A DNA stretch of 54,484 nt from Candidatus Aegiribacteria sp. (GTDB lineage: Bacteria > Fermentibacterota > Fermentibacteria > Fermentibacterales > JCC-6). The DNA lies in the NCBI GenBank assembly GCA_021108005.1, contig JAIORS010000115.1, positions 1 to 54,484 of the forward strand, read 5' to 3'. A model generated the notes under the pieces. The model did not search any database and was not told the origin of the DNA. It saw nothing but the letters and a program-made list of their open reading frames with translations. Made by a program: the position numbers and the translations under genes. Positions 1 through 15,482 of this stretch are shown here, piece by piece; the stretch's first letter is position 1, and every line of letters starts with the position of its first letter.

Positions 1-90
1 TATTCTATTAAATGCAAGGAAAAATATAGCGCCTGTTTCCCGGCGTTTATATCCTGTTCAATATCACAGGTGTCCCACGTTCATTAGCTT

Positions 91-285
91 CTATTCTAAA
101 CGCAGCAACTTACTTCTCATTTTGATCGCCTCTTGGTAACCAGCCCCAATGAAGTAATTGGAATTATGAAAGATCGAGCCTTTTGTGATATATCCGCAAC
201 AAAGCAATCCCTTACTTATGAGATTGTATAACGCATTCCAACAGTGATATATAAACTCTATCACTCCTGTTCTCCGAGTAATCAA
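91..285 (-). pseudogene. short ORF, possible truncated cyclase-like protein fragment
   Basis: A 64-codon reading frame starting from TTG with no clear ribosome binding site. I do not recognise it firmly. The stretch from about residue 27 to 52 (GYITKGSIFHNSN, then G-G-E-A spacing) resembles the pattern G-x-I-x-x-G-x-I-x-H-x-x-N-x-x-x-G-x-G-x-x-E-A seen in a family of nucleotide-cyclase-like hypothetical proteins. Those proteins are several times longer, so this would be a broken internal piece. The DNA just upstream on the - strand has stops in the frames I read and does not extend the similarity. It may equally be non-coding. It sits at the edge of an AT-rich accessory region. Confidence 0.2.
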
Positions 286-396
286 TCAGTTATCCAATAG
301 TATTCATCGTCTATTATGAATTTCCAGACTGTTGTATCATCATGTATTTCAGAATTATATGTCGCTCAATGCTTGCATCATGTTCAAGAATAAGCT

Positions 397-1476
397 ATGT
401 TCATCAAAGTCGAAACAGACAGTTATAATGAACAAAGAAATGAGTTTGTCATGAAATTGACTCATCGAAATCGCGATAGGGAAATACTACAGATAGCACT
501 CAAGAAACTTAACGAGGAATTACCTGTTGGAAATTGTGAAGTACAATGGGAGATACCCATGGGTATTATGGGCATCAAACATGATGCCGTACTCAAATTC
601 GAGAAAATACTCCATGAATATTATGTTGAGATTCGCAGGAACATTGATCTCAAAATGCTTGATGTTATGGAATTCTACCAGGCTGCAACCGATAGAACCC
701 TGCTACTAGTAACAGATGTAGCAACAAATAGGATTGCAAGAGATCTGAGAAGAAGGAAAATTCAATTCATTGACACTTTGGGGAACATGTATCTTACTCA
801 GCAAGATCCCTTCATTCGAATTTTTGTAATCGGTAATAGACAACAGGACACAGCTATCCAGAAACCGGTTAACATGTTTATTGGCACAAGACTTCAGGTC
901 ATATTCACTCTGCTAGCAATCGAGAATGCTGTAAATCTCCCCTATAGAGAAATCGCAAAGCTGGCGGGAGTAGCTTTGGGAACTGTAGGATTGACATTCA
1001 AGGATTTGAAACAGCTTGGATATATTCGAGCTTACAAGCACAATCGAAAAATCATAAAGCGTGACAAACTTGTAGCTAGATGGTTAGAAGCATATCCTGT
1101 ACAGATCCGTCCAAAACTCAATCCAAGACGCTTCGATGTTCTGGAGAAAAACTGGTGGATAAATATAGATCTCAACCAATATGGAGCAGTACTTGGTGGT
1201 GAAACAGCAGCCGCAGTTCTTACAAAGTATCTTCACCCAGAGCATGGAGTTATTTACATGCAAGGAAGCATTCACGAACTGGCTATTGCCTTGAAGCTAA
1301 AAGCTAATCCAGAGGGAAACCTCACTATACTCAGCAAGTTTTGGGACAATGAAAACTTACATGTCAATCAAATCCCTATAGTCCCTCCCCTGCTTGTGTG
1401 TGCGGAGTTGTTAGCTGAAGGTGGAGAAAGAAATAGAGAGACTGTAAAAATGATTATGGGAGATTGGGATGTATAA
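397..1476 (+). CDS. AbiEi-like antitoxin/regulator of a type IV toxin-antitoxin pair
   Basis: A 359-residue protein resembling the COG4861/AbiEi group, winged-helix proteins that repress their own operon and counteract an AbiEii nucleotidyltransferase toxin. The N-terminal third is a charged alpha/beta region; a helix-turn-helix-like stretch follows at about residues 175-215 (LPYREIAKLAGVALGTVGLT), then a C-terminal domain of unknown fold. The first in-frame ATG at 397 lacks a good Shine-Dalgarno sequence. The ATG at 451 (MKLTHRNRDRE) fits the usual family N-terminus and may be the true start. Its 3' end overlaps the next gene by 8 bases (shared bases 1469-1476), a typical toxin-antitoxin arrangement. 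Autoregulation is expected from the family but no operator was identified. Confidence 0.72.
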   Translation: MFIKVETDSYNEQRNEFVMKLTHRNRDREILQIALKKLNEELPVGNCEVQWEIPMGIMGIKHDAVLKFEKILHEYYVEIRRNIDLKMLDVMEFYQAATDRTLLLVTDVATNRIARDLRRRKIQFIDTLGNMYLTQQDPFIRIFVIGNRQQDTAIQKPVNMFIGTRLQVIFTLLAIENAVNLPYREIAKLAGVALGTVGLTFKDLKQLGYIRAYKHNRKIIKRDKLVARWLEAYPVQIRPKLNPRRFDVLEKNWWINIDLNQYGAVLGGETAAAVLTKYLHPEHGVIYMQGSIHELAIALKLKANPEGNLTILSKFWDNENLHVNQIPIVPPLLVCAELLAEGGERNRETVKMIMGDWDV

Positions 1477-2320
1477 GGTAACTATCGATGCAGATAGAAG
1501 GAAAATACTTTCTGCCATAAATGCCATATCCACGGAGCTAAGCATTACCTGGTTTCTCTGCGGTGCTTATTCCAGGATTCTGCTTTTCGAAGAAATTTTA
1601 GAGGTTTCAGTTGGTCGAGCAACAATCGACCTTGATATAGCTATTTGCGTAAAATCCCTTGAGGACTTCTACAATTTCAGGGATAATCTTCGTAGAAAGT
1701 ATAACTTCAAACAAGATCGTTATAATGAACATAGACTTATTCATTCAAGTAATTTACGTTTGGACATAATTCTCTTCGGACGTTTCGCTGAGCCTGATGA
1801 AATGTACCGTTGGGGAGATGATGACGAATTTGAAATGAATGTTCAGGGTTTTGCAGATGCTTACTCATCCAGTATAAGCATAAGTATTAATGACGAGTTT
1901 GAGATCAAATCAGCCGGTTTTGCTGAGCAGTTTGTCCTTAAATTGCTAGCATGGAAGGATAGGCATTCGATACGTGGAGTCGACGATGCTGGTGATCTCG
2001 CTTACTTTCTAGTTAATGCAATACACTCTTTCCCGGATGATGAACTCTATAATAAGTATGATTCCGTTATGGAGGAAAATGAGTATGATGCCGAACTCAC
2101 TTCTTGTTTCGTCTTAGGAAAGCAAATCAAATCAGTGTTCTCCGAAAAGACATGTAACACCTTACTTGAACTCCTCCATAACGAGTTACAGAAAGCTGAG
2201 GACTCTGCACTTATATCAGATATGTACGAGAAATTCACCTCTTGGCCTCAACCGGAAGAGCGAATATCCGACCTATTCACGCAGCTCCTTAATGGTATCT
2301 GTACAATCATTGTTGGCTAG
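1469..2320 (+). CDS. AbiEii-like nucleotidyltransferase toxin
   Basis: A 283-residue protein of the AbiEii/COG4849 nucleotidyltransferase group. The polymerase-beta-type core is visible: a glycine motif near residues 32-36 (GAYSR), the paired acidic residues in ATIDLDIAI (D54, D56) and a third candidate metal ligand, D99, in LRLDII. Related toxins (AbiEii, MenT) transfer nucleotides to RNA targets such as tRNA 3' ends or hydroxylated substrates; the substrate here is unknown. GGGAG at 1458-1462 lies 6 bases before the ATG, inside the upstream antitoxin gene, so translation is probably coupled. All three acidic residues are present, so the toxin looks catalytically intact. It lies inside the AT-rich segment that ends at tRNA-Arg. 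Confidence 0.75.
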   Translation: MYKVTIDADRRKILSAINAISTELSITWFLCGAYSRILLFEEILEVSVGRATIDLDIAICVKSLEDFYNFRDNLRRKYNFKQDRYNEHRLIHSSNLRLDIILFGRFAEPDEMYRWGDDDEFEMNVQGFADAYSSSISISINDEFEIKSAGFAEQFVLKLLAWKDRHSIRGVDDAGDLAYFLVNAIHSFPDDELYNKYDSVMEENEYDAELTSCFVLGKQIKSVFSEKTCNTLLELLHNELQKAEDSALISDMYEKFTSWPQPEERISDLFTQLLNGICTIIVG

Positions 2321-2387
2321 GAAATTTGTTCTGATTGTGTTATCCATACGTTCCCGGTCAATGCCCATCAGCATGTAAGGAAAGTTT

Positions 2388-3434
2388 ATGAAGCTCATAT
2401 CAGCCGTTCTTCTACTCCTGTTTGCAGAATCAGCAAATTCAGTCACTATCGATATTCTTTCAGAGCATTCATGTCCTGTCGAAATTATGAGATGGAGTCC
2501 AATCCGGATCGACAGCTGTCAGTTTCTGGAATCGGGAGGAATGAGAATCTCTACAAATCGGGCTGTTCCTTCTGGTGATTCTTTATTCAACACTGAATTG
2601 TGGACGATTGTAATTGATTCAGCTGGATGTCCGGTATCATCTGAAGTAGTTGTTCTGGATATCCCTGATAACCGGCTCATACTGAGTTTTTCCCAACTTG
2701 GGGGATCGAACGAGATATGGATGATTGCCTGCACAGAACAGAATGACACGGTATGGACATGCGCTCTTGAGGGAACGGATGAATTCAGCAATTATCAGGC
2801 TGTAACGAAGCTCCCGGATGGCGGATATCTGATAAACAGCCCTCCCGATTGCCATTCCACCTACACGGAGATCCAGAGTGTGTCATCTGCCGGCGAGATG
2901 ATATTTCACTACTCACTTGGTACCTGCTATCTACTGGACCTGCCTGGGGTTATCGGTGAGGTATCGCCGGGCGTCAGATTCCTCAGGAAGACATCAAGCG
3001 GAGATATTCTTGCCGGTGGTACTGTCTCGCAGTTTCTCACAAGCCCTGACGCCTGGTTCGTATGCCTTCTGGATGGTGATACCGGCAATCCCCGGTGGAA
3101 GACAACAGGCTATGCCCTCGGAATGGCCGGAGTTTACGAGGCTATCGAAGCTTCTTCGGGCTTGATAGTAGCTGTAGGTGCTACAGCGAGGATCGTTATA
3201 CCCGAAGGGTACCCTCGTTCCGCCTGGGGATCAAAACTGCCGTTCATCACCGTTCTTGATTGCACGGGAGCATTTCAGAAAACGGTTGTGTGTGATCTCG
3301 ATTTCGCCGATTGGTTCTACAGCATCATCGAGACGAACCCTCTGGAGTCCGAGTTCCTGATTACCGGGGAGGATACTACATCGAATGAACTTGTGCTTCT
3401 CAGAGCAAATATTTCCACCGAACAGGATAACTGA
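2388..3434 (+). CDS. exported protein of unknown function, probable beta-propeller
   Basis: 348 residues beginning with a clear signal peptide (about residues 1-18, ending in the region SANS) and preceded by an AAGGAAAG ribosome binding site. The mature part is rich in repeated short beta-strand units of the kind D-G-G-Y/I-L-x-x-G (for example DGGYLINS and SGDILAGGT), with tryptophans and aspartates spaced as in bacterial WD/PQQ-like propellers that read out as 'value recorded, value displayed' repeats. No catalytic motif is visible. It follows the toxin-antitoxin pair by 67 bases. A secreted or periplasmic binding role is inferred only from fold appearance; no precise family is assigned. Confidence 0.6.
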   Translation: MKLISAVLLLLFAESANSVTIDILSEHSCPVEIMRWSPIRIDSCQFLESGGMRISTNRAVPSGDSLFNTELWTIVIDSAGCPVSSEVVVLDIPDNRLILSFSQLGGSNEIWMIACTEQNDTVWTCALEGTDEFSNYQAVTKLPDGGYLINSPPDCHSTYTEIQSVSSAGEMIFHYSLGTCYLLDLPGVIGEVSPGVRFLRKTSSGDILAGGTVSQFLTSPDAWFVCLLDGDTGNPRWKTTGYALGMAGVYEAIEASSGLIVAVGATARIVIPEGYPRSAWGSKLPFITVLDCTGAFQKTVVCDLDFADWFYSIIETNPLESEFLITGEDTTSNELVLLRANISTEQDN

Positions 3435-3932
3435 CGCTTAGTCAACCAGAATTTTCGTTGGTACGGAATTTTGAACCGGGTCATAACCTTTTTCGTGCCG
3501 GAATATCGGAAGAATGAGTGAATTCCGGTGAGATTTCAATAGAAAACACGACCGCAGCGCACCGCTGAGATTCTGCCGATCGGCCCGAATACCTTCCGGC
3601 TTTCATTGATTTCACTGCTTCATTGAGTAATATTGGAATATATCTGACCTGTCAAAGAACCAACCTCCCCGATGGGAAGCGGAACCCCTCCCCGGAGCGC
3701 ACACTCCTCCTGATGCCGGGCGGATACAATCTCACCCAACCTCTATCTCCGGGACGTCATCCTTCCAGGGAAGGTAGTTCGCGTCAGGCTCACAGACCAG
3801 AAATAGTGCCTTCCGACCCGAGGTGAAAGCTTATCTTGACTCAAGGGTATGGAACCATTCAATATACGCAGGTGAATCATACTCTCAGTGACGGTATTAT
3901 ATTACTCAAAATTAAGAATGGAGGCTACAATA
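3435..3932. other. intergenic stretch without a supported gene
   Basis: About 500 bases between the exported protein and the GNAT gene. Base composition is richer in G and C than the flanking accessory genes, especially at 3660-3830. Short frames occur but have neither ribosome binding sites nor recognisable protein. A run at about 3733-3810 reads on the + strand as a strand-like tail (NLYLRDVILPGKVVRVRL, then a stop) and could be the eroded C-terminus of a lost exported protein; this is a guess. No clear terminator hairpin was seen. Confidence 0.3.
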
Positions 3933-4976
3933 ATGTACGGGTTTACAATTGTTCCCTTCTCAGTCGCTTCCTCGAACCAGAAACAGATAGACGCCTGGTA
4001 CGCTCTGCGGAGTAGCCTTCGCAAGGAAACGCTCCCTGACGAGTCTGTTTTAACCATGGAGATACTGCTTGCACATAACCGCGCCATGCAAGAGCTTCTG
4101 GAGTCTGTTGAATGGTGCATCTGGCATGGTGAAGATGAGGTCATGGTCGGGCTTGCTGGTGTCCATTTCTCAAAGGAGGGTTCAGAAAGCGACCCCGCCT
4201 ATTTCACCATACAGATCGATCAAAACTACAGACGCAGTGGAATTGGCAGTACATTTCTGAGAAAAATAGTTCAAACTGCAACAGAACGGGAAAGGAAGAT
4301 ACTTCGCGTTCAAACAAATGACAGGTGTCTGCCCGGTGAGAAATTCATCGCTCCAACAGGGGCAGAAACTGTCCATAAGGGACACTTCAATATTCTTGTT
4401 CTAAAGGATGTGGAGGAAACCCTTATCAATTCATGGCTTGGGCTTCCGATGCAGGGATTCAATGAGGTCACCATTGGTAACTGGGAAGGATTAACTCCGG
4501 AACATCGGATCCAGGAGATATCTGACTTCTATCAGGTGATCTATGACGCAGGGAAAGAACAGCACGGGGATTCTGGTTATAAATTCACTCCGGAGAATGT
4601 TCGAAAAGGTGAAAATGTTTCGATTTCGATGGGTAAAAAAGTTCATGCAATTTACGGTGCTGATGCCGAAAGTGATCGTCTGCTTGGGCTTACGAAGATA
4701 TCTTGGTTCTCTTCACGACCATCGGTTGTTTTACAGGGGTACACAGCTGTTCTTCCCGATGCCAGAGGAAAAGGAATAGGGAGACGGCTCAAGGCCGAAA
4801 TGCTGAAGAAAGTGATTCGGGACATGCCCGAGGTTGAGTATGTGAAAACGGGAAACGCAGACAACAACGATGCCATACTGAAGATCAATGCTGAGCTGGG
4901 ATTCATACAGCAAATGGCAACAAAAACCTGGCAGATAGAAACGGCTGCTTTAGAGGAGTATCTCAGTGTGCTTTAA
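3933..4976 (+). CDS. tandem GNAT-family N-acetyltransferase
   Basis: 347 residues holding two GNAT acetyltransferase modules in one chain. Each has the acetyl-CoA pyrophosphate-binding motif A: RRSGIG at about residues 100-105 and ARGKGIG at about 277-283. The second module also has the typical asparagine-rich NADNNDAILKIN segment followed by a GFI-type strand. Such fusions acetylate small molecules or antibiotics, but no substrate can be read here. The start at 3933 is chosen because GGAGG (3920-3924) lies 8 bases upstream; ATGs at 3888 and 3918 in the same frame lack this. The gene is on the AT-rich accessory side of tRNA-Arg and has no obvious operon partner. Confidence 0.75.
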   Translation: MYGFTIVPFSVASSNQKQIDAWYALRSSLRKETLPDESVLTMEILLAHNRAMQELLESVEWCIWHGEDEVMVGLAGVHFSKEGSESDPAYFTIQIDQNYRRSGIGSTFLRKIVQTATERERKILRVQTNDRCLPGEKFIAPTGAETVHKGHFNILVLKDVEETLINSWLGLPMQGFNEVTIGNWEGLTPEHRIQEISDFYQVIYDAGKEQHGDSGYKFTPENVRKGENVSISMGKKVHAIYGADAESDRLLGLTKISWFSSRPSVVLQGYTAVLPDARGKGIGRRLKAEMLKKVIRDMPEVEYVKTGNADNNDAILKINAELGFIQQMATKTWQIETAALEEYLSVL

Positions 4977-5052
4977 TTTTGTGAGATTAAGCTTGCATCA
5001 GTTAAAGAAACAACTTAAGAAATTTGGAAATAGAAGGGTCTGGGGTCGAAAC

Positions 5053-6141
5053 ATGAAATTTGCAAGAACCGTAATACTGTATCTCTGTGCCCTATGTATT
5101 TCATGCTCAGAGAATCAACAATCCGAAACGCTTTCATCAGTTCCTTATGACACTTTGCAAATAGTAGATTCAATTGGAGTTATGTATGGAGATAGCAATT
5201 ACATATTCGGAACAATATCAAATGTTGATAGAGACCAGCAAGGCAAAATATTCGTTCTTGATAGCATTAGAAATTGTATCCTTATCTTCTCCCCAACAGG
5301 TGAGTTTATTCATCAGATAGGACGTTATGGAGAAGGACCAGGCGAGTTCAATGATCCGCTTGCACTTGAGATTACCGGTGATGGATCGATATGTGTTGTT
5401 AATAGACAATGGTTTCGCTTCAACAGTGAATGGGAGTATTTAGATGCGGAGTTGCTCGACAATTCTAGAATTTCGCAAATGGAATCATGCGGCCCTGATG
5501 CAATCGTTGGAATTGTAAATATACTGGACATGACAAATGCTGGCGTGTCTATCGACAGAAGAATAACAATGTGGAGTGAATTCGATCCAAATCAAGAAAT
5601 CGCTGTTTACTATCAGGCAGACTATATTGCCAATGTTCCAAACGATATATTTACCATAGATCTTTATCATTATGTGAAATACACAGTTATTGATAGCACC
5701 ATATTTGTAGCGCCGAATCCTCTAACAGAGCCATTGCTCTACTCCTTTGATAAAGACGGTACTCCTCGGGATACTCTGTTGCTTCCTTATTCAGCTGTTG
5801 AGAAATCTTCCGAAGATATTGCTGAAGAGAAAGTATTCATTGAAGGTTCTCTGTACTCCGCTACATCAGGTGAAAGATCAATCGAATGGGAGCCGTATCC
5901 ATATAGAGCAATGATTGGTGAGCTTGGCACTGACAGCCTCGGCAGATTGTGGGTTCAGCGAGGATTTGAGGATATTGCTGTATTCGATATTATTGATCCC
6001 GACAGCCTGGAAGTCGTCAAAACGGTTATCATTCCAGATATTGATGGTGTAATAAACTGGAAATTCCACATATCGGAATACGGGATACTGGGGATTCCCA
6101 AGTACGAGTATGACTACCCGATAATCTATATTATCAAGTAA
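5053..6141 (+). CDS. lipoprotein with six-bladed beta-propeller-like repeats
   Basis: From the ATG at 5053 the protein is 362 residues with a lipoprotein signal (KFARTVILYLCALCISC, lipidation expected at the cysteine of the ISC lipobox). The same frame is open back to 4966 but that extension is not signal-like. The mature part resembles the 6-bladed NHL-type propeller lipoproteins common in Bacteroidetes and relatives: a 'DRDQQGKIFVLDS' blade, then 'FSPTGEFIHQIGRYGEGPGEF', a characteristic blade signature, and later 'DSLGRLWVQRG'. These proteins sit on a membrane surface and bind unknown ligands. A 7-bp inverted repeat follows directly after the stop codon. Confidence 0.7.
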   Translation: MKFARTVILYLCALCISCSENQQSETLSSVPYDTLQIVDSIGVMYGDSNYIFGTISNVDRDQQGKIFVLDSIRNCILIFSPTGEFIHQIGRYGEGPGEFNDPLALEITGDGSICVVNRQWFRFNSEWEYLDAELLDNSRISQMESCGPDAIVGIVNILDMTNAGVSIDRRITMWSEFDPNQEIAVYYQADYIANVPNDIFTIDLYHYVKYTVIDSTIFVAPNPLTEPLLYSFDKDGTPRDTLLLPYSAVEKSSEDIAEEKVFIEGSLYSATSGERSIEWEPYPYRAMIGELGTDSLGRLWVQRGFEDIAVFDIIDPDSLEVVKTVIIPDIDGVINWKFHISEYGILGIPKYEYDYPIIYIIK

Positions 6142-6160
6142 TATCTCCATTCAGGAGATA
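6142..6160 (+). terminator. hairpin directly after the propeller lipoprotein gene
   Basis: A perfect 7-bp inverted repeat (TATCTCC, loop ATTCA, GGAGATA) begins immediately after the TAA stop. No T-run follows, so it is at best a weak or factor-dependent terminator or a 3'-end stabilising hairpin. Confidence 0.3.
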
Positions 6161-6782
6161 GCCATGGGTCCTCTAAACACTCCACAATCCGGTTTCAAAC
6201 GCAGATCCAATATCAACAGGAACAGAACGATTTTGCCATATAGAGACATTATATTTCACATCTGCAGCATATTTGAACATGCTATTCTCTACTGAAGTGA
6301 TACAACCCAAATCCACTCCGGGAGATCAAATGATATATGCAAGTCAATTGTTATAAATCAATGATTTCTGAATATATGATTAAGTCCAATTCTCGATCTG
6401 AGATACCGAGTCCACAATGCAATACGAAATAGGGGCGGAGGTAATTAGATATTTAAATTCTGAAATTTGGTACCCCTGATGATTTCCAGTTGGAAACCGT
6501 TCTTGGATTGGATCATAAGTGTTGCTGAGCTGCAGAAAGCCTATACTGCGTGATATTAACACCTTAGCAGGTCATTATCTTAAAGTACTATTTATAGGCT
6601 ATCATCTGCCAAATGGGATTGGAACTGGTACGAGTGATGAAAACATAATAAAATAAGTTACTATTTGAAGGATTGTCCTTCCTACAGTAATAAGTATCAA
6701 TAATCAGACTAGACGAATGTCAATTAAGCGATAATAATAGATTGATGTTTTATTGGGTTATTACTGAAGGAGATATTTTATT
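6161..6782. other. AT-rich intergenic region containing a tRNA-derived direct repeat
   Basis: About 620 bases without a supported gene. The only reading frame over 50 codons (6380-6562, - strand) shows no start signal or family resemblance. The notable element is the 19-base copy of the tRNA-Arg 3' boundary at 6458-6476. The last 20 bases hold the AAGGAGAT ribosome binding site (6767-6774) of the next gene. Confidence 0.5.
6458..6476 (+). repeat. direct repeat copy of the tRNA-Arg 3' boundary (candidate att remnant)
   Basis: The 19 bases TTCTGAAATTTGGTACCCC are identical to 8746-8764, where they span the 3' CCA end of tRNA-Arg(CCG) and 10 bases of flank. Orientation is the same and the copies are 2288 bases apart. 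After base 19 the match degrades (TGATGATTT against CGACGGGATT). A duplicated tRNA 3' end flanking accessory DNA is the classic footprint of tyrosine-recombinase integration. Confidence 0.6.
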
Positions 6783-8717
6783 TTGCGTAGTTTCGTTTTC
6801 CTTTTCGCTCTAACACTCTCTTTCATTTCTCATGCTGCTGAAACTAATCAAAGTACAGAGCCAGAAACTGGCACAATCATTGGGCGTGTTACAGTTGCCC
6901 ATATAAACGAGTTATATGGTGTTGAAGATGCAGTAGCAAACGCAAGAGTAATGGTGCGAGGAACACTATTCGGTGCTATGACTGATTCATTGGGTTATTT
7001 CGCGATCAGTAATCTACCAATGGGGGCCTACGACTTGACCGCCCATGTAATGGATTATTCTACTTTCTCCCCTTTCAGTATACAAGTTTTATGCAACGAC
7101 ACTACTGATGTTGGTGATGTTTTTGTATCTCCACAATGGCCTAATCGTGGTCACTACTTTATATGGCCCTATTTTGAAAATACTATGGAAGTTGAAGTAG
7201 AACTCATCTCTGACAGTATCCTGAACCACATAGGGGACTTGGTTCAATTCTATACTGTATCTACTTGCCTACCAAGTACCAGATCTGGTCACACCTATAG
7301 AATCAGCCTGAACGATAGTAGCAATAGTCTTCATCTCAGAATTCCTGGATTCTGGGAGTTAAGTATAAACTTTGATGACGCTCGATATACTAACGGAGTA
7401 TACCGGATTAAACTAGATTATCTGCTTCATCAATCAAGTGGATTTTCGTCCGATTCGCAATCACGCCAAACTCCGGATGTTTTTCATAATTCAATACCTG
7501 ATGAATGGCTTGCAGAAGAGTATCAGGCAGATCATGAATACATAGATATAACGCAGTGGGGTAATAGCGATTTAATCAACTGGGGCTTTATAGGTCACAA
7601 GGTAATCTTCGATGAATTGGATAATCGAAGTATTCTTCTGATATACCATCATCGTGCAGTATTACTTCGAAGTAATCAAGAACCAAAGGTGATAGAATTC
7701 ACATATCCAGTGAAAGTCTTTCGTTCTTCTCCTAATGGCAGATATGTTCTTGCAATGGAATCAGTTGGTTTCCTTTTTCAGGGCGGAAATGCTGAATTCA
7801 TCGACATGATCACGGGAAACTCAACCTGTTTCGACCCGTCTCCCGAACTACAAGAGCCCGATAGAGCTGTAAGCCTTGATATGGCTTGCTATATAGCTCC
7901 ATTCTACTTTATTGGAAATTGTGGAAGATTAGTAAGGGTTGAAGACGATAGAGTACATTTTTATAATGAAGATTTCACTCTTGATTCATTAATACTGTTA
8001 GACAATCTAACCCTCCCTCGCTATTGTAGAAATCGGGAGCGTTTGACGCCAGATGGTGATTATCTGCTGCAAGTCGGATTGTATGAAGATAACAAGTATG
8101 TATTGATATTTATGAATAGTGATGGAAACCATACAAAAATGATAGATCTCGAAAACCGGAATGAAAGGGGTGAGTTAACTGCACTCTCAATGGACGGCAA
8201 TTGCAAATATGTTCTACTTTTCCAATACTCCCCCTACTCCCCTGGGAGAACACGCCTTTTCAATGCATCAACAGGTCAGATCCTGAAAGAATGGAATGAG
8301 AGAACCGTTCAAGCAGTTTTCTCCCCATCTGGTAATCTTGTATGCAATCATTTCGAATTGAGTGAAACACCATATTTGAGTGTTCTTTCCACTGAAACAC
8401 TTGAAAATGTACTCATCATACCCGATGCTCATCCCGAAAATTATGAAGATCTCTCAATCTTTAGAGCCATACTAGGACTTTCAGACAATGGATATATTTT
8501 CGCAGAGTTACTCTCAGAACAGAGAAACGATATTGAACTCAGGTATGCTCTATTTGATGATATGATGAATCCTATTTGGTTGAGTTCCTGTTTCAGCTAT
8601 GGTAACACACCGTCTTTCGACTATCGCAGGAATCATCCCACTCTATCCCCAGACGGAACCAGACTTTCTTATATGGATGGTAGATACCTTCACCTGATAA
8701 CTTTTTCAAATCTGTAA
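6783..8717 (+). CDS. exported protein: carboxypeptidase-regulatory-like domain plus propeller-like domain
   Basis: 644 residues starting at TTG, supported by AAGGAGAT 8 bases upstream. Residues 1-18 form a signal peptide (FLFALTLSFISHA). Residues about 30-110 match the CarboxypepD_reg/Ig-like pattern (GTIIGRVTVAH, then DSLGYFAISNLPMGAYDLTAH), a beta-sandwich common in outer-membrane and secreted proteins of this superphylum. Residues about 250-640 contain repeated blades such as SPNGRYVLAM, TPDGDYLLQVG, SMDGNCKYVLLF, SPSGNLVC and SPDGTRLSYMDG, typical of a WD40/TolB-like propeller. No enzyme motif is visible. It is visibly AT-rich compared with genes beyond 8.8 kb and lies between the two 19-base repeats, so it may be cargo of the integrated segment. 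Function unknown. Confidence 0.7.
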   Translation: MRSFVFLFALTLSFISHAAETNQSTEPETGTIIGRVTVAHINELYGVEDAVANARVMVRGTLFGAMTDSLGYFAISNLPMGAYDLTAHVMDYSTFSPFSIQVLCNDTTDVGDVFVSPQWPNRGHYFIWPYFENTMEVEVELISDSILNHIGDLVQFYTVSTCLPSTRSGHTYRISLNDSSNSLHLRIPGFWELSINFDDARYTNGVYRIKLDYLLHQSSGFSSDSQSRQTPDVFHNSIPDEWLAEEYQADHEYIDITQWGNSDLINWGFIGHKVIFDELDNRSILLIYHHRAVLLRSNQEPKVIEFTYPVKVFRSSPNGRYVLAMESVGFLFQGGNAEFIDMITGNSTCFDPSPELQEPDRAVSLDMACYIAPFYFIGNCGRLVRVEDDRVHFYNEDFTLDSLILLDNLTLPRYCRNRERLTPDGDYLLQVGLYEDNKYVLIFMNSDGNHTKMIDLENRNERGELTALSMDGNCKYVLLFQYSPYSPGRTRLFNASTGQILKEWNERTVQAVFSPSGNLVCNHFELSETPYLSVLSTETLENVLIIPDAHPENYEDLSIFRAILGLSDNGYIFAELLSEQRNDIELRYALFDDMMNPIWLSSCFSYGNTPSFDYRRNHPTLSPDGTRLSYMDGRYLHLITFSNL

Positions 8718-8745
8718 AGGGGATCTATGCTCTGAATCTGAGTGT

Positions 8746-8764
8746 TTCTGAAATTTGGTACCCC
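8746..8764 (+). repeat. direct repeat at the tRNA-Arg 3' end (candidate attachment site)
   Basis: Partner of 6458-6476, 19 of 19 bases identical. It covers the CCA end and first acceptor-stem bases of tRNA-Arg (8756-8764) plus 10 downstream bases. Insertion here would leave the tRNA gene intact, as expected for an attB within a tRNA 3' end. Confidence 0.6.
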
Positions 8765-8831
8765 CGACGGGATTCGAACCCATGCTTCCGGCTCCGGAGG
8801 CCGACGCTCTATCCAGCTGAGCTACGGGGGC
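8756..8831 (-). tRNA. tRNA-Arg, anticodon CCG
   Basis: Read on the - strand: 76 bases with a full cloverleaf. The acceptor stem GCCCCCG pairs with CGGGGGT (one G-U pair at the end), D arm GCTC/GAGC, anticodon stem TCGGC/GCCGG with loop CTCCGGA giving anticodon CCG, T arm ATGGG/CCCGT with loop TTCGAAT, then A and an encoded CCA. It reads the CGG codon. No T-rich terminator is evident on its 3' side, which is the side abutting the accessory region. Confidence 0.95.
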
Positions 8832-8860
8832 ACCTTTTATTTAATATGCACTGGAATCAG

Positions 8861-9346
8861 TCAGAAGGATATCTTTTCTACTAATGGCTTTTTGCCTTTC
8901 TCAAGAGTAAGAAGTGCCATTGTTCTGCTTCCAATTGATCCTGATACTGCGCCGGGATTCAGTCTAAGTACACCATCTTTGATATCATTGCAGAATACAT
9001 GTGAATGACCAAAAATGATTATTTCCGGATTACGGGACTTGAACCTTTTGAAGATCCTGTTCTCTATTCCGAATCTTGCTCCTGTCCCATGCGTCATGCA
9101 TATCCTTTTTCCTTCGATCTCCAGTTCAAGACTCTCAGGATACTTACTGAAGATATCGTATGGGTCCATGTTGCCATGAACAGCTTTTACCGGCGCAAAT
9201 CTTTCAAGGTCAATAATTACGCTTTTATCGACCATGTCTCCTGAATGCAGAATGAGATCACATTCTACACAAATCTCATACACCCGGCCGGGGATTGCCC
9301 CCAGCCTTGTGGGTATATGAGTATCTGAAAGAACAGCTATTTTCAA
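8861..9346 (-). CDS. YfcE/MJ0936-family metallophosphoesterase
   Basis: 161 residues, the usual length for the family of small cytosolic calcineurin-like phosphodiesterases. Dimetal ligands are visible in order: D8 and H10 in LSDTHIP, D in HSGDMVD, N and H in VHGNMD, H in MTHGTG and the terminal GHSH. Family members hydrolyse phosphodiester model substrates; the physiological substrate is uncertain. The start codon is TTG, placed directly after the TAA of the upstream 31-codon gene (TAATTG), so translation is probably coupled to it. It forms the third gene of a hup-led unit. Confidence 0.88.
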   Translation of the reverse strand: MKIAVLSDTHIPTRLGAIPGRVYEICVECDLILHSGDMVDKSVIIDLERFAPVKAVHGNMDPYDIFSKYPESLELEIEGKRICMTHGTGARFGIENRIFKRFKSRNPEIIIFGHSHVFCNDIKDGVLRLNPGAVSGSIGSRTMALLTLEKGKKPLVEKISF

Positions 9347-9442
9347 TTACTTGTTTTTCTTCTTATGCCTGTTAGCCCGGCGTCTTTTCTTCATTTTATG
9401 TTTTGCTATCTTTTTACGTTTTTTCTTTTTCCCGCTGGGCAT
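9347..9442 (-). CDS. AURKAIP1/COX24-domain small basic protein (candidate small-subunit ribosomal protein)
   Basis: A 31-residue, extremely basic protein: it begins MPSGKKKKRKKIAKHKMKK and continues with RRRANRHKKKNK. It matches the AURKAIP1/COX24 family, whose mitochondrial members belong to the small ribosomal subunit and whose bacterial homologues in Bacteroidetes start MPSGKKRKRHK. Its ATG abuts the TAG stop of hup (TAGATG) and its own TAA abuts the TTG start of the phosphodiesterase gene. It lies below normal ORF length cut-offs and is easily missed. The family match rests on the conserved PSGKK...KI..HK..K..R..RHKKK pattern. Confidence 0.8.
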   Translation of the reverse strand: MPSGKKKKRKKIAKHKMKKRRRANRHKKKNK

Positions 9443-9724
9443 CTATTTTGCGACCTTGTTTTTCACAATTCGTGAAGGTTTGAAAACAGGTACTTTCCTT
9501 CTTGGGACTTCAACAGCGTCGCCTGTGTGTGGATTTCTCGCAATACGCTTCTTGCGGTCTACAACCTTGAATGTACCAAAACGTCTGATCTCAACGTGAT
9601 CATGACTGTAAAGAGCTTCTCTGATTTCTTCAAGAAATCCATCGACCACTAAAGCAACATCCTTTTTATTGAGGCCGATATTATTACGTGCTGCAATCTT
9701 CGATACGATGTCAGCTTTTGTCAT
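9443..9724 (-). CDS. hup: HU family DNA-binding protein
   Basis: 93 residues, the standard HU length. It starts MTKADIVSKIAARNNIGLNK and carries the conserved FGTF motif, the beta-arm signature RKKRIARNPHTGD and the closing VPVFKPSRIVK. HU binds and bends DNA non-specifically as a dimer in the nucleoid. GGAGG lies 6 bases before the ATG, and a promoter-like pair is found about 90 bases upstream. It leads a compact three-gene unit with the COX24-type protein and the phosphodiesterase. Confidence 0.95.
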   Translation of the reverse strand: MTKADIVSKIAARNNIGLNKKDVALVVDGFLEEIREALYSHDHVEIRRFGTFKVVDRKKRIARNPHTGDAVEVPRRKVPVFKPSRIVKNKVAK

Positions 9725-9816
9725 TTTTTTCCTCCGTTAACTGATTAGTGTTTACCGGCAAACATGATTCCGGTATCGTTATTCGAATTCTCTTTCATCT
9801 TTTCCGTAGAAGCGTT

Positions 9817-9845
9817 AAGATAGAAAATAACAATGAGTTCGGCAA
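9817..9845 (-). promoter_or_regulatory. sigma70-like promoter candidate for hup
   Basis: On the - strand TTGCCG (9840-9845) and TATCTT (9817-9822) are separated by exactly 17 bases. Each box matches the consensus at four of six positions, and the pair lies about 90 bases before the hup start. Confidence 0.35.
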
Positions 9846-10034
9846 GGGTCAGAATGAAATCGCTTAATTTTCTACTTATATTCCAAATAGTTCTTATTGG
9901 AATTATTAATCTGTTCTAATATTTATTATTTTAGCATTTTGCGCTGACATGAAATTTTTCAACTCGCTTACTATCACTCACGATAGACTTAAATATTTGT
10001 TTTAATTCCTCATACAAATGAAAGCTGAGAGCAA

Positions 10035-10067
10035 AACCTCCCGCATTCTGGTGGAGCTGACGGGAGT
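10035..10067 (-). repeat. duplicated tRNA-Ala 3' end and flank (copy 1)
   Basis: 33 bases identical to 10146-10178. The repeat contains the last 19 bases of the tRNA-Ala gene (from CCA inwards) and 14 bases of downstream flank, including the ascending arm of its terminator. The copies lie 111 bases apart in direct orientation. The remainder of the tRNA is absent here, so this is a fragment and not a second gene. Confidence 0.85.
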
Positions 10068-10102
10068 TCCTTCGACTCGCTCCGCTCGCTCAGGATAAAC
10101 TC
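10068..10102. repeat. dispersed-repeat-like GC-rich element
   Basis: The sequence TCCTTCGACTCGCTCCGCTC followed by GCTCAGGATAAACTC resembles short interspersed repeats of the form TCCTGAGCGAGCGGAGCGAG that I recall from many environmental genomes. It contains an internal direct repeat CTCGCTC. I see only one copy in this window. It occupies the gap between the two copies of the tRNA-Ala 3' duplication. Confidence 0.4.
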
Positions 10103-10130
10103 ACCCTTGATGGTTCTCCTCCCTGAAACT

Positions 10131-10155
10131 AAAAGCGGGAGGCTGAACCTCCCGC
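10131..10155 (-). terminator. intrinsic terminator of tRNA-Ala
   Basis: On the - strand GCGGGAGG, loop TTCAG, CCTCCCGC forms a perfect 8-bp GC-rich stem followed by TTTT. It begins 5 bases after the tRNA-Ala CCA end, exactly where a terminator for that gene is expected. Confidence 0.75.
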
Positions 10156-10178
10156 ATTCTGGTGGAGCTGACGGGAGT
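10146..10178 (-). repeat. duplicated tRNA-Ala 3' end and flank (copy 2, within the gene)
   Basis: The intact copy of the 33-base direct repeat, identical to 10035-10067. It overlaps the last 19 bases of tRNA-Ala and one arm of the terminator stem. Confidence 0.85.
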
Positions 10179-10236
10179 CGAACCCGTGACCCCCTGACTG
10201 CCAGTCAGGTGCTCATACCAACTGAGCTACAGCCCC
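10160..10236 (-). tRNA. tRNA-Ala, anticodon GGC
   Basis: 77 bases on the - strand. The acceptor stem GGGGCTG pairs with CAGCTCC (one G-U pair), D arm GCTC/GAGC, anticodon stem CCTGA/TCAGG with loop CTGGCAG (anticodon GGC), T arm ACGGG/CCCGT with loop TTCGACT, discriminator A and encoded CCA. It reads GCC (and GCU by wobble) alanine codons. Confidence 0.95.
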
Positions 10237-10291
10237 TCTGAAGTAGGTAACACTACGAAAACGATGGTGAAAGTCAATAGGGATTTGTTCT

Positions 10292-10714
10292 TTATCGTGG
10301 TATATCCAGCTTCCAGAATGTTCCTCCCGCCGGTACTCTTACGAACTCATTATCAAATTCAAGCATTACAAGTTCGATGGTCATTGAAACAGTACCATTG
10401 AAAAGATGCCCCCCCTTTACTGACATGTCTTCTTCCGCGAGGCTCACATGAAGGTGAACGAATGGTTTACCTTCTTTCATAGATACATTGCCCTGAAGAG
10501 ACAGTATCTCCGAAGATGGCAGAACAATCTGTTTTACGTATTCCTTACCGTTGTATCGTCCGATTTCTATGTTCTCAAGCATTCCGATGCCTGCCACAAT
10601 AGCGGCCGATTCCACTCTCTCCTTTTCGCACCAATCTGCGAGTGTTTCGGGAAATTTCTCGCCTATATCAAATCTAATAACAGTTCTTTTATTATTCCTG
10701 TAGAGTACTTTCAT
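10292..10714 (-). CDS. PCC/DUF296-domain protein
   Basis: 140 residues covering one complete PCC (DUF296) domain, the size of stand-alone bacterial members. Visible family marks are SAAIVAGIGM, IGRYNGKEY, LSLQGNVSMKEGKPFVHLHVSL and GGHLFNGTVSMTIE; the paired histidines of HLH and the one in GGHLF are the conserved putative metal or ligand-binding residues. In plants the domain is fused to AT-hook DNA-binding proteins; the bacterial role is unknown. Its ATG lies 23 bases inside the end of the upstream lipoprotein gene, with GGAAGG 8 bases before it, so the two are coupled. Confidence 0.85.
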   Translation of the reverse strand: MKVLYRNNKRTVIRFDIGEKFPETLADWCEKERVESAAIVAGIGMLENIEIGRYNGKEYVKQIVLPSSEILSLQGNVSMKEGKPFVHLHVSLAEEDMSVKGGHLFNGTVSMTIELVMLEFDNEFVRVPAGGTFWKLDIPR

Positions 10715-11072
10715 CTAAGTAACCTTCCGTCCAGCTTCTTCTTCCCGTGTCTATGAATCCGTGTCCAGACGGGCAGCTTACCACATAACCACTATCTGAC
10801 GACTCCAGGAGATACTCCTCCCCTGTTTCCGGACATGTAAGAGTTTGCAGTCTTCCTGCACATTCATTCAACTGTTCTATAGTAGTTGCCCATTCACCGT
10901 TGACATCACAATATCTTGCCTGATCTGTGCATAGATTGTTCATATTAGCTCTGCAAGTTCGCCGTTTTGAGATGTCAATCAGCGTTTCTGAATTACTGCC
11001 ATTGCAGGCTGTGAACAGGATAATGATGAAAGAGGCCGCAACAATTTTCAGTATTAATGATTTTTTATTCAT
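10692..11072 (-). CDS. lipoprotein of unknown function
   Basis: 126 residues with a lipoprotein signal: charged NKK start, a hydrophobic run and lipobox FTAC at about residues 20-23. The mature part has six further cysteines, including a CPETGEEYLL segment and C-PSGHGF near the end. These resemble the C-terminal minipilin-like pattern of proteins that carry a CP.tG..Y strand, but no pilin methylation motif is present. It overlaps the C25 peptidase gene by 8 bases at its start and the PCC-domain gene by 23 bases at its end. Function is not predictable. Confidence 0.65.
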   Translation of the reverse strand: MNKKSLILKIVAASFIIILFTACNGSNSETLIDISKRRTCRANMNNLCTDQARYCDVNGEWATTIEQLNECAGRLQTLTCPETGEEYLLESSDSGYVVSCPSGHGFIDTGRRSWTEGYLDESTLQE

Positions 11073-13449
11073 CAGTTATAACAACCATCTGTCTTGTTAT
11101 CGGGTCTGTACCCGTGGCAGTGAACCTTGCGAAATATATTCCCGAAGGTACACGCTTTCCATCAGTGTCAATACAGTTCCAAACCAGTGTTCCCGCTTCC
11201 GCGGAACCCGTATCAACCGTTTTTACGATTCTACCCGCAGCATCGAAAATGCTCACAGTAGCTGAGCCTTCGGTAGCGCTCCAGTTAAAGGTGATAGAAC
11301 TGGATGCCGGATTGGGAGAGGGTCCTGAAAAATAAGGGAATATCGCAGGTACACCAGCATCTGCAATCCCTGTACCATATACAAGTATCTCTTTTGTTCT
11401 CAGTACGTGATTTCTGCTCCATACCGTTAATGCCACCGTATCGTAGTCGTCGGTTGCATTTATATTCATTGTGATCTGACCTGCGGCATCGGTGTAATCT
11501 ACAGCGTACATCACTGAGTTATCCCATTCCCCCTGAATAAAACATACTCTGGCATCTTCCACAGAACCGGAGTTATCCGCCACCGTAACCGTAACGCTGT
11601 TCATTCCCGGCGACAGTGTATCCGGAGCGGTAATCTGCAGCTGTCCATCGGGTGCTTGAGACCAGACAGGTAACTCAGGGTCACCGAAAAGGGTAATAGA
11701 TTTTGCTATCCAGTCGTAATGCGTATCGGTTGATATCAATGGTACGAACTCGTCCCAGGCCATTGAATGCGCGACACCAAGGTTGTACAGGTCTTCAGTA
11801 AATAGATTGGCGAAGAACTCCTGGTCAACCAGTTCGCTCCATTGGTCTCCGGGTTCTGAGGGCTCTCCCCATCCGTATCTTGTATTCATCATGCAGAAAC
11901 CGCCGCCACCGGGTGATCTGATCCAGAATTCAGCGAGACAGGTACCCGTATCGAAGGAACCGGAAAGACAGGCTATTGTATTGAATATTGATACCCTGCC
12001 GTGTGCAGAGATATTGGTGAGTCCCATAAAATCGTCGCTCACAAGGCTTTCGTCGCCTATCGACAGCATTCCCTCACTGCCGTGCCCGGCATGATTGATA
12101 AGGTTCATTCCCGTATTGAGCATCTCCATCGTAGCGCTGTAGCTCTGGGTGCCGTTACTCTCATAATGCTTGACGACAGGTTGCCATTCTGTGGGTGTGT
12201 AGAGAGTGTCAACTTTTTCTTTGCCTGCACTTCCGGGACAGAAAGGAACCCACCAGAGTATACCTGTAGTGAATCCCATGGAGGTAAACCACGGGTCTGT
12301 GTCTTCACTGTCAGCAAGTTCGGGAATTTCGTAGGCGAGAACCTTGTTTACGAAAATATTGGCCTGCGTACCGTTCTCAACTGAAGCTCTTCCGATAATG
12401 TAATCAGGATGATAATCCATTACATCACCGCTGAGCTCTCCCCAGACGCCGTTATTGTTTGCATCCCACTGGTCCGAACCAACCGTCAGGTCGTTCATGT
12501 CCTGGTAGTAAATATCAGCCGCGGGAAACGCTTCGTAACCTTCGGCGGTCGCATAGCAGTTCCTGTGTGGTACGAGGGGCGTATCTCCGCCCAATAGAAC
12601 GTAAGTCGGGGGTGATTGGGTGTATATATCTCTCAGAAAGAATCTGAGCTTCTGTGCGGCGTCAACGCCGGTGTAATTCGATTCTATATACTCCATGGTT
12701 ACCACAGCTGCCGGAATTCCTTTCATGGTTTTAAACTGCGCAAGGGGCTCAAATACTGAAACCAACGAATCCCTCGTAACGATAAGGTATTCCCCCCATG
12801 GAAGATCGTCCGCCGGTACAGCAGATATTCGGCTCATACTCAGTTCTTCGGGATTCAGAACCTGACTGCTGATAATATCCTCAGATATCCTGAGTCCTTC
12901 CGCTCCCCTGCCTTCCGGAGTACACATCATATCTTCGTAATGGTAATGGATGATCATGGAGATGGAACTGGTCAGAACAGCTCTGCCGGAAGATGGATAC
13001 CATACTATCGGAGATATTCTCATGTTCAGGATATTGTATCCCATGAGATTACCCTGCGATACGGGTATTATTAAAGGATTGCTTGCGGTTTCACTGTAGG
13101 ATTGAGCATTCCTGGGAGTCACCGAAAAGAGTTCCGGACTGGAAATTGGAACACCGTGCTGAACGGGTTTGAGATCGTAATATCCATGTAGTGCGATCTC
13201 ATCAAAGCTCACAATGGATACGGAATCAACCTTTGCGGCGGTTGGCAGCAGTACTGAAACCGGAAACACCGGAAGAGTCGGACTACCCGGAACCCCGGTA
13301 TTCACAGCACCTTCCAGATAGAAGTACTCACCAAGAGTGCTTTCCATGACTGTTATATCTGCTACGGTACTTTCCCAGTTAATAAGCATTTCACCCGCAG
13401 ATACCGTGAAAACGATAACAAACATAGTAAATACGGTTATTTTTCTCAT
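11065..13449 (-). CDS. gingipain-like C25 family cysteine peptidase with C-terminal sorting domain
   Basis: 794 residues. Residues 1-19 are a signal peptide. An N-terminal propeptide-like region (about 20-215) precedes the C25 catalytic domain (about 216-595). The catalytic histidine is H456 in NHAGHGSEG and the nucleophile is C494 in NTIACLSGSFD. Calcium-type acidic loops such as DANNNGVWGE are present. An Ig-like beta domain follows (about 600-695), then a C-terminal FlgD/type A sorting-like domain (about 705-794: PSPNPASSSITFNW, GRIVKTV, GIYFARF, RQMVVI). Such proteins are exported through the Por/type IX system and act at the cell surface as endopeptidases. No other Por secretion gene is adjacent except a PorV-like gene at 38.3 kb. 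Confidence 0.9.
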   Translation of the reverse strand: MRKITVFTMFVIVFTVSAGEMLINWESTVADITVMESTLGEYFYLEGAVNTGVPGSPTLPVFPVSVLLPTAAKVDSVSIVSFDEIALHGYYDLKPVQHGVPISSPELFSVTPRNAQSYSETASNPLIIPVSQGNLMGYNILNMRISPIVWYPSSGRAVLTSSISMIIHYHYEDMMCTPEGRGAEGLRISEDIISSQVLNPEELSMSRISAVPADDLPWGEYLIVTRDSLVSVFEPLAQFKTMKGIPAAVVTMEYIESNYTGVDAAQKLRFFLRDIYTQSPPTYVLLGGDTPLVPHRNCYATAEGYEAFPAADIYYQDMNDLTVGSDQWDANNNGVWGELSGDVMDYHPDYIIGRASVENGTQANIFVNKVLAYEIPELADSEDTDPWFTSMGFTTGILWWVPFCPGSAGKEKVDTLYTPTEWQPVVKHYESNGTQSYSATMEMLNTGMNLINHAGHGSEGMLSIGDESLVSDDFMGLTNISAHGRVSIFNTIACLSGSFDTGTCLAEFWIRSPGGGGFCMMNTRYGWGEPSEPGDQWSELVDQEFFANLFTEDLYNLGVAHSMAWDEFVPLISTDTHYDWIAKSITLFGDPELPVWSQAPDGQLQITAPDTLSPGMNSVTVTVADNSGSVEDARVCFIQGEWDNSVMYAVDYTDAAGQITMNINATDDYDTVALTVWSRNHVLRTKEILVYGTGIADAGVPAIFPYFSGPSPNPASSSITFNWSATEGSATVSIFDAAGRIVKTVDTGSAEAGTLVWNCIDTDGKRVPSGIYFARFTATGTDPITRQMVVITDE

Positions 13450-13464
13450 TTTTTCCCTACTGTA

Positions 13465-14562
13465 TCAGGTTTCCATTAAGGCTGTAATCCACCCTTTACC
13501 GTGTATTTCCTCCAGCATTACTTTCAACATAATCGTAATAGGCACCGCGAGTATCATACCCCACGCTCCCCATAGCCAGGCCCATGCAATAACCGCCAGA
13601 AGAACGGTAACCGAACCTATTGGAAGTTTGAACTGCATCAGTTTTGGCTCTATTGCATTTGAGACTGTGATGTTAACGGCCATAACAACGATTATTACCG
13701 GCCATGCATCAAGAAAGCTGCCGTGTTCGAAAACGGCCATCGTATAAAGAACAACGCCCGCACCTGCAATAAGCGAACCGTAAATCGGGATGAAGTTCAT
13801 AACGAAACATATTGATCCCCATATCAGTGCGTCCTGGGGATTGAGAAATAGCATAAGACCAAGGCCGATACATATACCGGTGATAGAACTGGTTGCAAGT
13901 TTTACTAATATGAACTTACGTGTATTGGATTCTATTTTTTCAGATATCTTCATTATCCTTTTGTAGTTGGATAATTTGAGATTCTTCTCAAGGTTCTCTT
14001 CAAGCTTTTTTCTTCCCATCATAAGGAAGGTAGTGAGAAAGAGTATCATTACGAAAGTAAATACACCGGAAATAATTGGTTTTGCAGCATTTGGAGCTAT
14101 GCTCATTGCAGATTCAGCAAGGCCGTTTATGTAGTTGGTTACAGCCGCCGAATCACCGAATATTCCGCTTGAAACCAGCCAACTCTTAATGGGCACAACG
14201 ATATTGTTCATGATCTCGTTGCTCTTGCTGAGAATAAGAGCTATCTGCCCTCTTACAAGCAGATATACTCCAAGTGAAAGGGCTACGAAGAGCAGTATTA
14301 CGAAAATAACTGAGAATATCACAGCGAGTTTGGACTCTTCACTGATATGCTCCCTGCCTAATTGGCCGATTATCCGGGACAGCATTTTGTCTGTCATACT
14401 TGCCGTTCTGTTCGCCACGGGCTGGAGAAGCAACATAAGGAAGAATGCGACTGTCACGGGTACAAATACCCCTGAGACACTTTTAAGAATAGTACCGGCA
14501 GCAACAATACCAAGGAGTACAATAGCCATTCTGAAAATTCGGCTGCTATAATCGTCTGTCAT
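13465..14562 (-). CDS. AI-2E family transporter (YdiK/PerM/TqsA-like membrane protein)
   Basis: 365 residues from the ATG at 14562, chosen because GGGAGGG lies 7 bases upstream and the codon overlaps the TGA of the preceding amidase gene (ATGA). Hydrophobic segments occur as an N-terminal pair (VLLGIVAAGTIL, VTVAFFLMLLL), another near residue 80, and a cluster in the second half containing the family signatures PIYGSLIAGAGVVLYT, ITVSNAIEPKLMQ and AWAWLWGAWGMILAVPI. The family forms inner-membrane transporters or Na+/H+ antiporters of diverse substrates; the autoinducer-2 assignment applies only to TqsA and is not implied here. Confidence 0.88.
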   Translation of the reverse strand: MTDDYSSRIFRMAIVLLGIVAAGTILKSVSGVFVPVTVAFFLMLLLQPVANRTASMTDKMLSRIIGQLGREHISEESKLAVIFSVIFVILLFVALSLGVYLLVRGQIALILSKSNEIMNNIVVPIKSWLVSSGIFGDSAAVTNYINGLAESAMSIAPNAAKPIISGVFTFVMILFLTTFLMMGRKKLEENLEKNLKLSNYKRIMKISEKIESNTRKFILVKLATSSITGICIGLGLMLFLNPQDALIWGSICFVMNFIPIYGSLIAGAGVVLYTMAVFEHGSFLDAWPVIIVVMAVNITVSNAIEPKLMQFKLPIGSVTVLLAVIAWAWLWGAWGMILAVPITIMLKVMLEEIHGKGWITALMET

Positions 14563-15356
14563 AAATACCCTCCCTGGCTGTTCCATGTACCGTATTCTTC
14601 AGGCCTGCGGTCTTCAAGACAGTTAATGCGACTTCGCATATCCTTCACGTCCGATAGATCTATCTCGAAATCACTGACACCTTCAGTTACACTGCGAGCT
14701 TTGATCATTTTTCCGCCTGGGTGGACTACTCCGCCCCCGCCTCCGAACAGGACCCCAAGATGTTCACCGCCCAGATTGCATCCAACAGTGAATATCTGGG
14801 CTTCAGCCGCTCTGGCCCTGAGCAGTGATCTGAACAGACCCAGCCTGCCGCTTGGCCACTGAGCCGGAACGAACAGTATCTCAGCACCATCCAGAACAAG
14901 CCTTCTGCCGAGTTCGGGGAATCTCAAGTCGTAACAGACCATCCCGGCAGCTGTTGTTCCCATAAAGGGGAATGTTCCACCGCATTTGCCCGGGATAAAT
15001 GCCTTATCTTCCCCCATCTGCTTGAACAGATGGACTTTTTCCGTCTGATACGCAATCGTTCCCTCAGGTGAGTATACAACCATTCTATTCACTACTCCAG
15101 CTTCGGTCTTCACTGGAAAGGTTCCACCTATAATCCAGATACCGTTGTCCTTCGCAGCTGCAGCGAGTGGAATACTTTTTAAATCTACTTCTGAAAGGGC
15201 AAAGGATGGAATGCTGTCAAGAGCGTAGCCTGTTGTAAACAATTCAGGCAGTGCAGCTGCGTCAGGGAGTGGTGGTGTAACAGCAGCTTCAGAGAATCTG
15301 TGTATGTCTTCAGCCGGAGAACCTTCTATGCCAAGCTCAACAAGTCTAAGGATCAT
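14559..15356 (-). CDS. nitrilase-superfamily carbon-nitrogen hydrolase (omega-amidase-like)
   Basis: 265 residues with the Glu-Lys-Cys catalytic triad of the nitrilase fold: E38 in LPELFTTGY, K107 in TEKVHLF and C141 in GMVCYDLRFPEL. The VCYDLRFPEL signature is typical of Nit2/YafV omega-amidases, which hydrolyse alpha-keto-glutaramate or -succinamate left by glutamine transaminases. This suits the aminotransferase gene divergently placed 125 bases away. ATG at 15356 is preferred over TTG at 15359 because GGAG then sits 5 bases upstream. The gene overlaps the following AI-2E family gene by 4 bases. Confidence 0.85.
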   Translation of the reverse strand: MILRLVELGIEGSPAEDIHRFSEAAVTPPLPDAAALPELFTTGYALDSIPSFALSEVDLKSIPLAAAAKDNGIWIIGGTFPVKTEAGVVNRMVVYSPEGTIAYQTEKVHLFKQMGEDKAFIPGKCGGTFPFMGTTAAGMVCYDLRFPELGRRLVLDGAEILFVPAQWPSGRLGLFRSLLRARAAEAQIFTVGCNLGGEHLGVLFGGGGGVVHPGGKMIKARSVTEGVSDFEIDLSDVKDMRSRINCLEDRRPEEYGTWNSQGGYL

Positions 15357-15482
15357 CAAATCTCCGTATCGTATCGGTTTTCTTCGTTGATTCTATAATA
15401 TACTATTCAAATCATTCTCAGTATAATACATTGAATAAAAAAATTATCGAAATAGTCTCATCATTCAGAAGGGAAATCAGCA

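Follow-up and report, generated by a model that had tools for sequence, protein, structure and literature searches.

The tRNA-Arg(CCG) locus and its flanks

The window analysed here, a complete contig of 54,484 bases, carries a tRNA-Arg(CCG) gene on the minus strand (8756–8831; ARAGORN; Rfam RF00005, 65 bits), the 3′ end of which is the anchor site of an array. A scan of the window located two exact copies of the 19-mer TTCTGAAATTTGGTACCCC on the plus strand, at 6458–6476 and 8746–8764, the positions given in an earlier sequence-only reading; 0.02 copies are expected in the window by chance, allowing up to three mismatches. The right copy comprises 10 bp of cassette end and 9 bp of tRNA, and that reading was likewise correct in having it span the tRNA 3′ end. 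The inserted piece carries the direct repeat of the tRNA end (19 bp, of which 9 bp are tRNA) at its end distal to the tRNA, and the insertion at the tRNA 3′ end has left the tRNA preserved. The 19-mer is not scattered over many sites of the 3.21-Mb genome, which holds the two exact copies and one copy with two mismatches. Each exact copy contains the core GGTACCCC: at 8757–8764 (plus strand) it lies within the tRNA 3′ end, as the crossover region, and recurs at many sites in relatives; at 6469–6476 (plus strand) site search and alignment identify it as the core of the cassette's own recombination site.

Between the two same-orientation sites lies a putative mobile gene cassette, running core to core on the plus strand (6469–8764) with one core common to the tRNA, in a region where relatives differ. 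Its cargo is a 644-residue exported protein (6783–8717, plus strand) with a carboxypeptidase-regulatory-like domain (Pfam PF13715/PF13620) and a propeller-like body. The left end of the cassette is formed by a conserved cassette-end module, here termed form 3 (6466–6625, plus strand), with similarity extending to 6775 in one relative (G012:C25). Used as a query, 6466–6625 found matches in 15 of 19 same-genus genomes, the longest of which begin at the core. Form 3 encloses a micro-ORF, MISSWKPFLDWIISVAELQKAYTA (6479–6553, plus strand), whose frame is kept in most of 20 copies from two genera. The micro-ORF copies (window 6479–6553, L296, L297, L299, L280, L285, L152, L075, L080) share the motif M(I/F)xSWxPFLxW..., and their third codon positions are slightly more variable.

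Left of the cassette, profile search identified a gene for a 391-residue six-bladed propeller lipoprotein-like protein of the DUF5128 family (4966–6141, plus strand), and further left lies an AbiEi-like regulator gene (397–1476; PF09952, 102 bits) overlapping a gene for a 283-residue partner (1469–2320), both on the plus strand. An orthologous pair, 59–62% identical to this AbiE pair (397–2320), occupies the same tRNA-Arg hotspot in another genus (G046; L299). Genes left of the tRNA are all on the plus strand and those to the right mostly on the minus strand, as had been claimed. The AT-rich left block of the same reading stands for 1–2000 and 5000–9000 (G+C 38–42%) and does not for 2000–5000 (45–50%, backbone-like), and 9001–10000, right of the tRNA, is equally AT-rich (39%). 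Neither site search nor a cassette-site position weight matrix (PWM) run over the window, which was built without form 3 so that decayed form-3 sites could escape it, revealed a further cassette site at 1–6458. The block is therefore not divisible into cassettes by these means and is variable DNA. Entry at the tRNA, which had been proposed for either the 2.3-kb propeller-gene piece or a larger block to its left, is borne out by flank comparison for the former, where right flanks are conserved and left flanks differ in relatives; this support does not carry over to the latter, with no further site at 1–6458, although an AbiE pair recurs at the same hotspot in another genus.

Right of the tRNA lies a conserved backbone on the minus strand (8861–15359), which encodes a phosphoesterase, HU, tRNA-Ala, a PCC domain protein, a 794-residue protein and further products. 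We compared the locus with 41 phylum-mates, probably of Candidatus Fermentibacterota (an assignment taken from one distant named match), as draft genomes with one genome per species. To the right of the tRNA, gene order is the same in eight species of the genus, at 50–88% amino acid identity. Left of it the content differs in every same-genus species whose left side is readable, and no accessory block with the same flanks in all relatives was seen; contigs end at the tRNA 3′ end in G018 and G007, and within 250 bp of it in four others. The left side is variable across 14 loci in four genera; compared between species, the tRNA locus is conserved and the content on its left varies. In these other species, each represented by one genome, the cassette itself appears to be absent.

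Cassette sites, anchors and transferred units

A 34-bp stretch, from the tRNA T-loop to 10 bp beyond the tRNA end, recurs off tRNA genes in relatives. The site family derived from 40 fetched stretches of relatives follows the pattern GGTACCCC-N(4-14)-TTNGAAC or TTGGAA, which occurs 114 times versus 3 in shuffled DNA; in a further 20 stretches, mostly from a sister genus, the counts are 52 and 3. Four right-hand forms can be distinguished: the tRNA T-arm, two related forms of the type GTRGTGGA...TTNGAACT, and form 3, TRATGATTTCCAGTTGGAAACC, to which the window site at 6469 belongs. Cassette-type sites have identical spacing in 88 of 95 cases and the consensus TTTGGTACCCCGTAGTGGANNCNTTTNGAACT, and left of the core nearly nothing is conserved. 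This places the outer 10 bases of the 19-mer outside the essential site; what had been taken as a 19-bp attachment repeat reduces to the common core GGTACCCC, flanked by variable cassette ends. A T precedes the core in 107 of 119 sites and, in the tRNA orientation, restores the CCA. Among adjacent sites less than 5 kb apart, 51 share orientation and none are opposed, as in the same-orientation arrays of integrons with one site per cassette. At five loci (L057, L058, L060, L164, L169) several cores continue into a CTTCGACTCGCTNCGCTCGCTCAGGATAAACTC-type repeat fused to a T-arm fragment.

Arrays in the relatives run in one orientation with one site per unit, and are typically anchored at one end by the 3′ end of a tRNA-Arg gene or by a stray duplicate of it. 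Around the stray T-arm copies, sequence to the right is conserved from species to species and sequence to the left varies. Long contigs of the sister genus (538 and 249 kb) hold arrays of up to nine sites ending at a stray anchor. The arrangement has an integron topology in which the tRNA-Arg 3′ end, or its copy, takes the part of attI. tRNA-Arg fragments of several lengths were found, including near full-length degenerate ones, which suggests, as far as sequence comparison can indicate, that the anchors derive from tRNA duplicates. Longer degenerate tRNA-Arg-like anchors are located at L093:4329, L096:7494, L074:10577 and L091:10061.

Cassette core and tRNA covary. In g5, a sister genus, tRNA-Arg(CCG) ends mostly in GGTATCCC instead of GGTACCCC; cassette sites beside a GGTATCCC tRNA carry GGTATCCC in 8/8 cases, 7/8 of them with form 3 like the window site, versus 0/35 in other g5 arrays (Fisher p = 7e-9). 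Such covariation would fit site-specific recombination by an enzyme requiring identical crossover regions.

Consecutive sites enclose 29 units of 0.6–3.9 kb, most with one to three genes on either strand. The cargo consists mainly of secreted FG-GAP, PQQ, RCC1 and carboxypeptidase-regulatory proteins, often with a Por_Secre_tail domain; AbiE, HipA, HicB and Fic toxin-antitoxin or defence genes also occur. A 1895-bp cassette with a Fic gene is 98.5% identical, core to core, between G018 and G006 (L079:11933–13827 and L152:11790–13684) and has different neighbours on both sides, whereas the xerC locus of the same two species shows 86% identity. Contamination as the source of the 98.5% match was rejected, the flanks and neighbouring cassettes diverging at species level. 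Three further shared units have 96.2–98.3% identity, some with one end decayed or deleted; overall, shared cassettes stand at 96–98.5% versus 86–88% for one chromosomal marker in the same species. At the sharpest unit ends the exchange point falls within GTACCCC. Single cassettes have, on this comparative reading, apparently been transferred between species as whole units. The near-identical Fic-protein cassette in two species is a good marker of recent transfer. A conserved gene of about 388 codons overlaps the xerC start in many genomes of the genus (L112:1597–2763 and orthologs).

Read in the tRNA direction, the window shows the tRNA end GTTCGAATCCCGTCGGGGGTACC and then a unit ending in the same-core site GGGGTACC. 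Very probably, 6469–8764 is one mobile gene cassette recombined site-specifically into the tRNA-Arg(CCG) 3′ end. A recombinase acting in trans would fuse a free circular cassette with the anchor through their cores, and recombination between two adjacent cores would excise it again. In nearly all cassettes the core is preceded by a T, which would keep the tRNA CCA end intact, and the circular junction would consist of the cassette end, GGTACCCC and a GTAGTGGA-type or form-3 arm. The earlier picture of an island whose integrase was lost, or lies left of the window, gives way to that of a single unit in a cassette system that spans the family.

Candidate recombinases and rival explanations

The window shows no recombinase, and the 25 commonest families listed for site-bounded units include none save one IS110 transposase. 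IS110 was rejected as the mover: the gene lies in one cassette only, with a homolog at one other place only. The internal tyrosine recombinase that marks tycheposons and genomic islands was not found inside the cassettes. Xer-like recombinase genes are present in these genomes, and a tyrosine recombinase acting in trans would be the likeliest class of mover. Candidate movers comprise IntI, a third Xer-like protein (e.g. G000:C117:38450) and uncharacterised DNA-binding proteins. Conservation of the sites is confined to one flank of the core, an unusual pattern for the core site of a tyrosine recombinase.

One alternative is repeated insertion of ordinary integrative elements or phages whose integrase is specific for tRNA-Arg, the present units being their decayed, integrase-less remnants. 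Such elements classically insert at tRNA 3′ ends and leave short direct repeats, and the tRNA-Arg fragments of several lengths, some near full-length and degenerate, would also fit. However, the units are small, of few genes and with uniform ends, integrase relics were not found in them, the 1.9-kb Fic unit moved between species as such, and the tested site patterns had no match in viral contigs. We regard this account as unlikely.

A second alternative, which we consider rather improbable, is that the IntI of these genomes moves the cassettes via unusual secondary sites. The window's own genome does encode IntI (TIGR02249, 366.6 bits; cut-off 265), and, within the set of genomes that are 90% complete or better, a full IntI goes with a higher number of cassette sites (mean 5.8 versus 1.3; Mann-Whitney p = 0.001), although ancestry and general gene exchange confound this correlation. 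Against this, the surroundings of intI contain an attI-like site with a GTT core and canonical attC-type repeats, both unlike GGTACCCC, and the crossover falls at GTACCCC and not at GTT. Recognition of attC depends on folding; the cassette sites fold no better than control DNA (z 0.13 versus −0.12). In addition, G003 and G002, both incomplete genomes, have many sites and no IntI above the cut-off. No intI lies beside the anchors: IntI is encoded on different contigs (G000:C204) or is separated from them by kilobases and intervening genes. Canonical attC sites are absent from the window, L152, L058 and L079, whereas the integron locus of a relative does have attC-type repeats. The arrays thus lack an adjacent intI, foldable RYYYAAC/GTTRRRY attC sites and a GTT-core attI; their resident site is the tRNA-Arg end with core GGTACCCC, and the attI-like site lies elsewhere. 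The gene at G000:C204:239–1432 (L170) encodes a true IntI with an N-terminal extension of about 85 residues, and has a LexA-like box and an attI-like site. It has relatives at L089, L061, L175 and L176. Contigs often break just upstream of intI, and the window's genome contains two broken intI copies (G000:C35 and G000:C69).

REP-like palindromes adjoin many cores, and one 69-bp unit occurs in tandem, which could point to a dispersed REP/MITE-like family with a tRNA-derived end, homologous recombination between its copies shuffling the genes. This is highly improbable, however: the left arms differ freely, the 7–8 bp common at some exchange points are too short for homologous recombination, site orientation is uniform, and core and tRNA vary together. 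The presence of only two exact copies in the window's own genome would suit a coincidental repeat or an immobile duplicate of the tRNA end, but either origin is scarcely credible given the chance expectation and the recurrence of the same structure in relatives.

Set beside these alternatives, the site-specific cassette system is integron-like in its working yet, by the properties examined, outside the integrons, and the 2.3-kb piece very probably represents one unit of this widespread system in a little-studied phylum. More tentatively, and with somewhat less than even confidence, we propose a second, non-IntI cassette-capture system operating in parallel to the true integrons: a dedicated recombinase might use tRNA-Arg 3′ ends and their dispersed copies as attI-like docking sites for single-gene cassettes with double-stranded sites of about 29 bp that mimic the tRNA end, reshuffling the secretome.

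Relation to known cassette systems

The likeness to integrons lies in the single site per cassette, the uniform orientation, the distinct resident site at one end, and a cargo of toxin-antitoxin and unknown genes. In contrast to integrons, there is no integrase beside the anchor and no foldable attC, the core is GGTACCCC and not GTT, the genes lie in both orientations, the cassettes are larger, and a tRNA 3′ end acts as the resident site. A literature search returned no paper on Fermentibacteria with integrons. The present system, found in an uncultured phylum and loaded mainly with secreted proteins, would amount to integron logic that relies on a tRNA end and dispenses with a folded attC.

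The nearest kind, and the one to which the present case belongs, is that of tRNA-targeted cassettes and additive flexible genomic islands, as these are described in the available text of the reports. Candidatus Actinomarinales have tRNA-targeted gene cassettes with tRNA direct repeats (PMC7771536), and in Candidatus Methylopumilus an additive island is preceded by repeated copies of the final 20 nt of tRNA-Lys (PMC10872708). Shared features are tRNA hotspots, small cassettes, direct repeats of partial tRNAs at the ends, and growth by addition. In contrast to those islands, as far as that text describes them, the cassettes here end in a conserved site of about 29 bp that is non-tRNA except for the core, many stray tRNA-Arg end anchors lie off the tRNA gene, and the core covaries with the tRNA. 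What is new relative to that text is the defined site, the dispersed anchors, the core covariation and the exact unit ends. There, the earlier cassettes of streamlined marine bacteria were noted by their direct repeats, with the movable unit and its site left undefined; here, unit ends, the 29-bp site, dispersed anchors, covariation and single-unit transfer can all be read from the sequence. With such units and sites, the growth of additive islands, a long-standing question, becomes directly testable.

Tycheposons, elements of 4–200 kbp with an internal tyrosine recombinase (PMC10872708), are likewise tRNA-associated cargo elements in genomic islands. The units described here, in contrast, are single-gene units without a tyrosine recombinase inside. 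The dif modules (pdif/XerCD) of Acinetobacter plasmids resemble the present cassettes as discrete gene modules, including toxin-antitoxin genes, with short sites served in trans. Sites of dif modules alternate in orientation and resemble dif, whereas the sites here are all direct and not dif-like. Such modules are described in PMC13141974.
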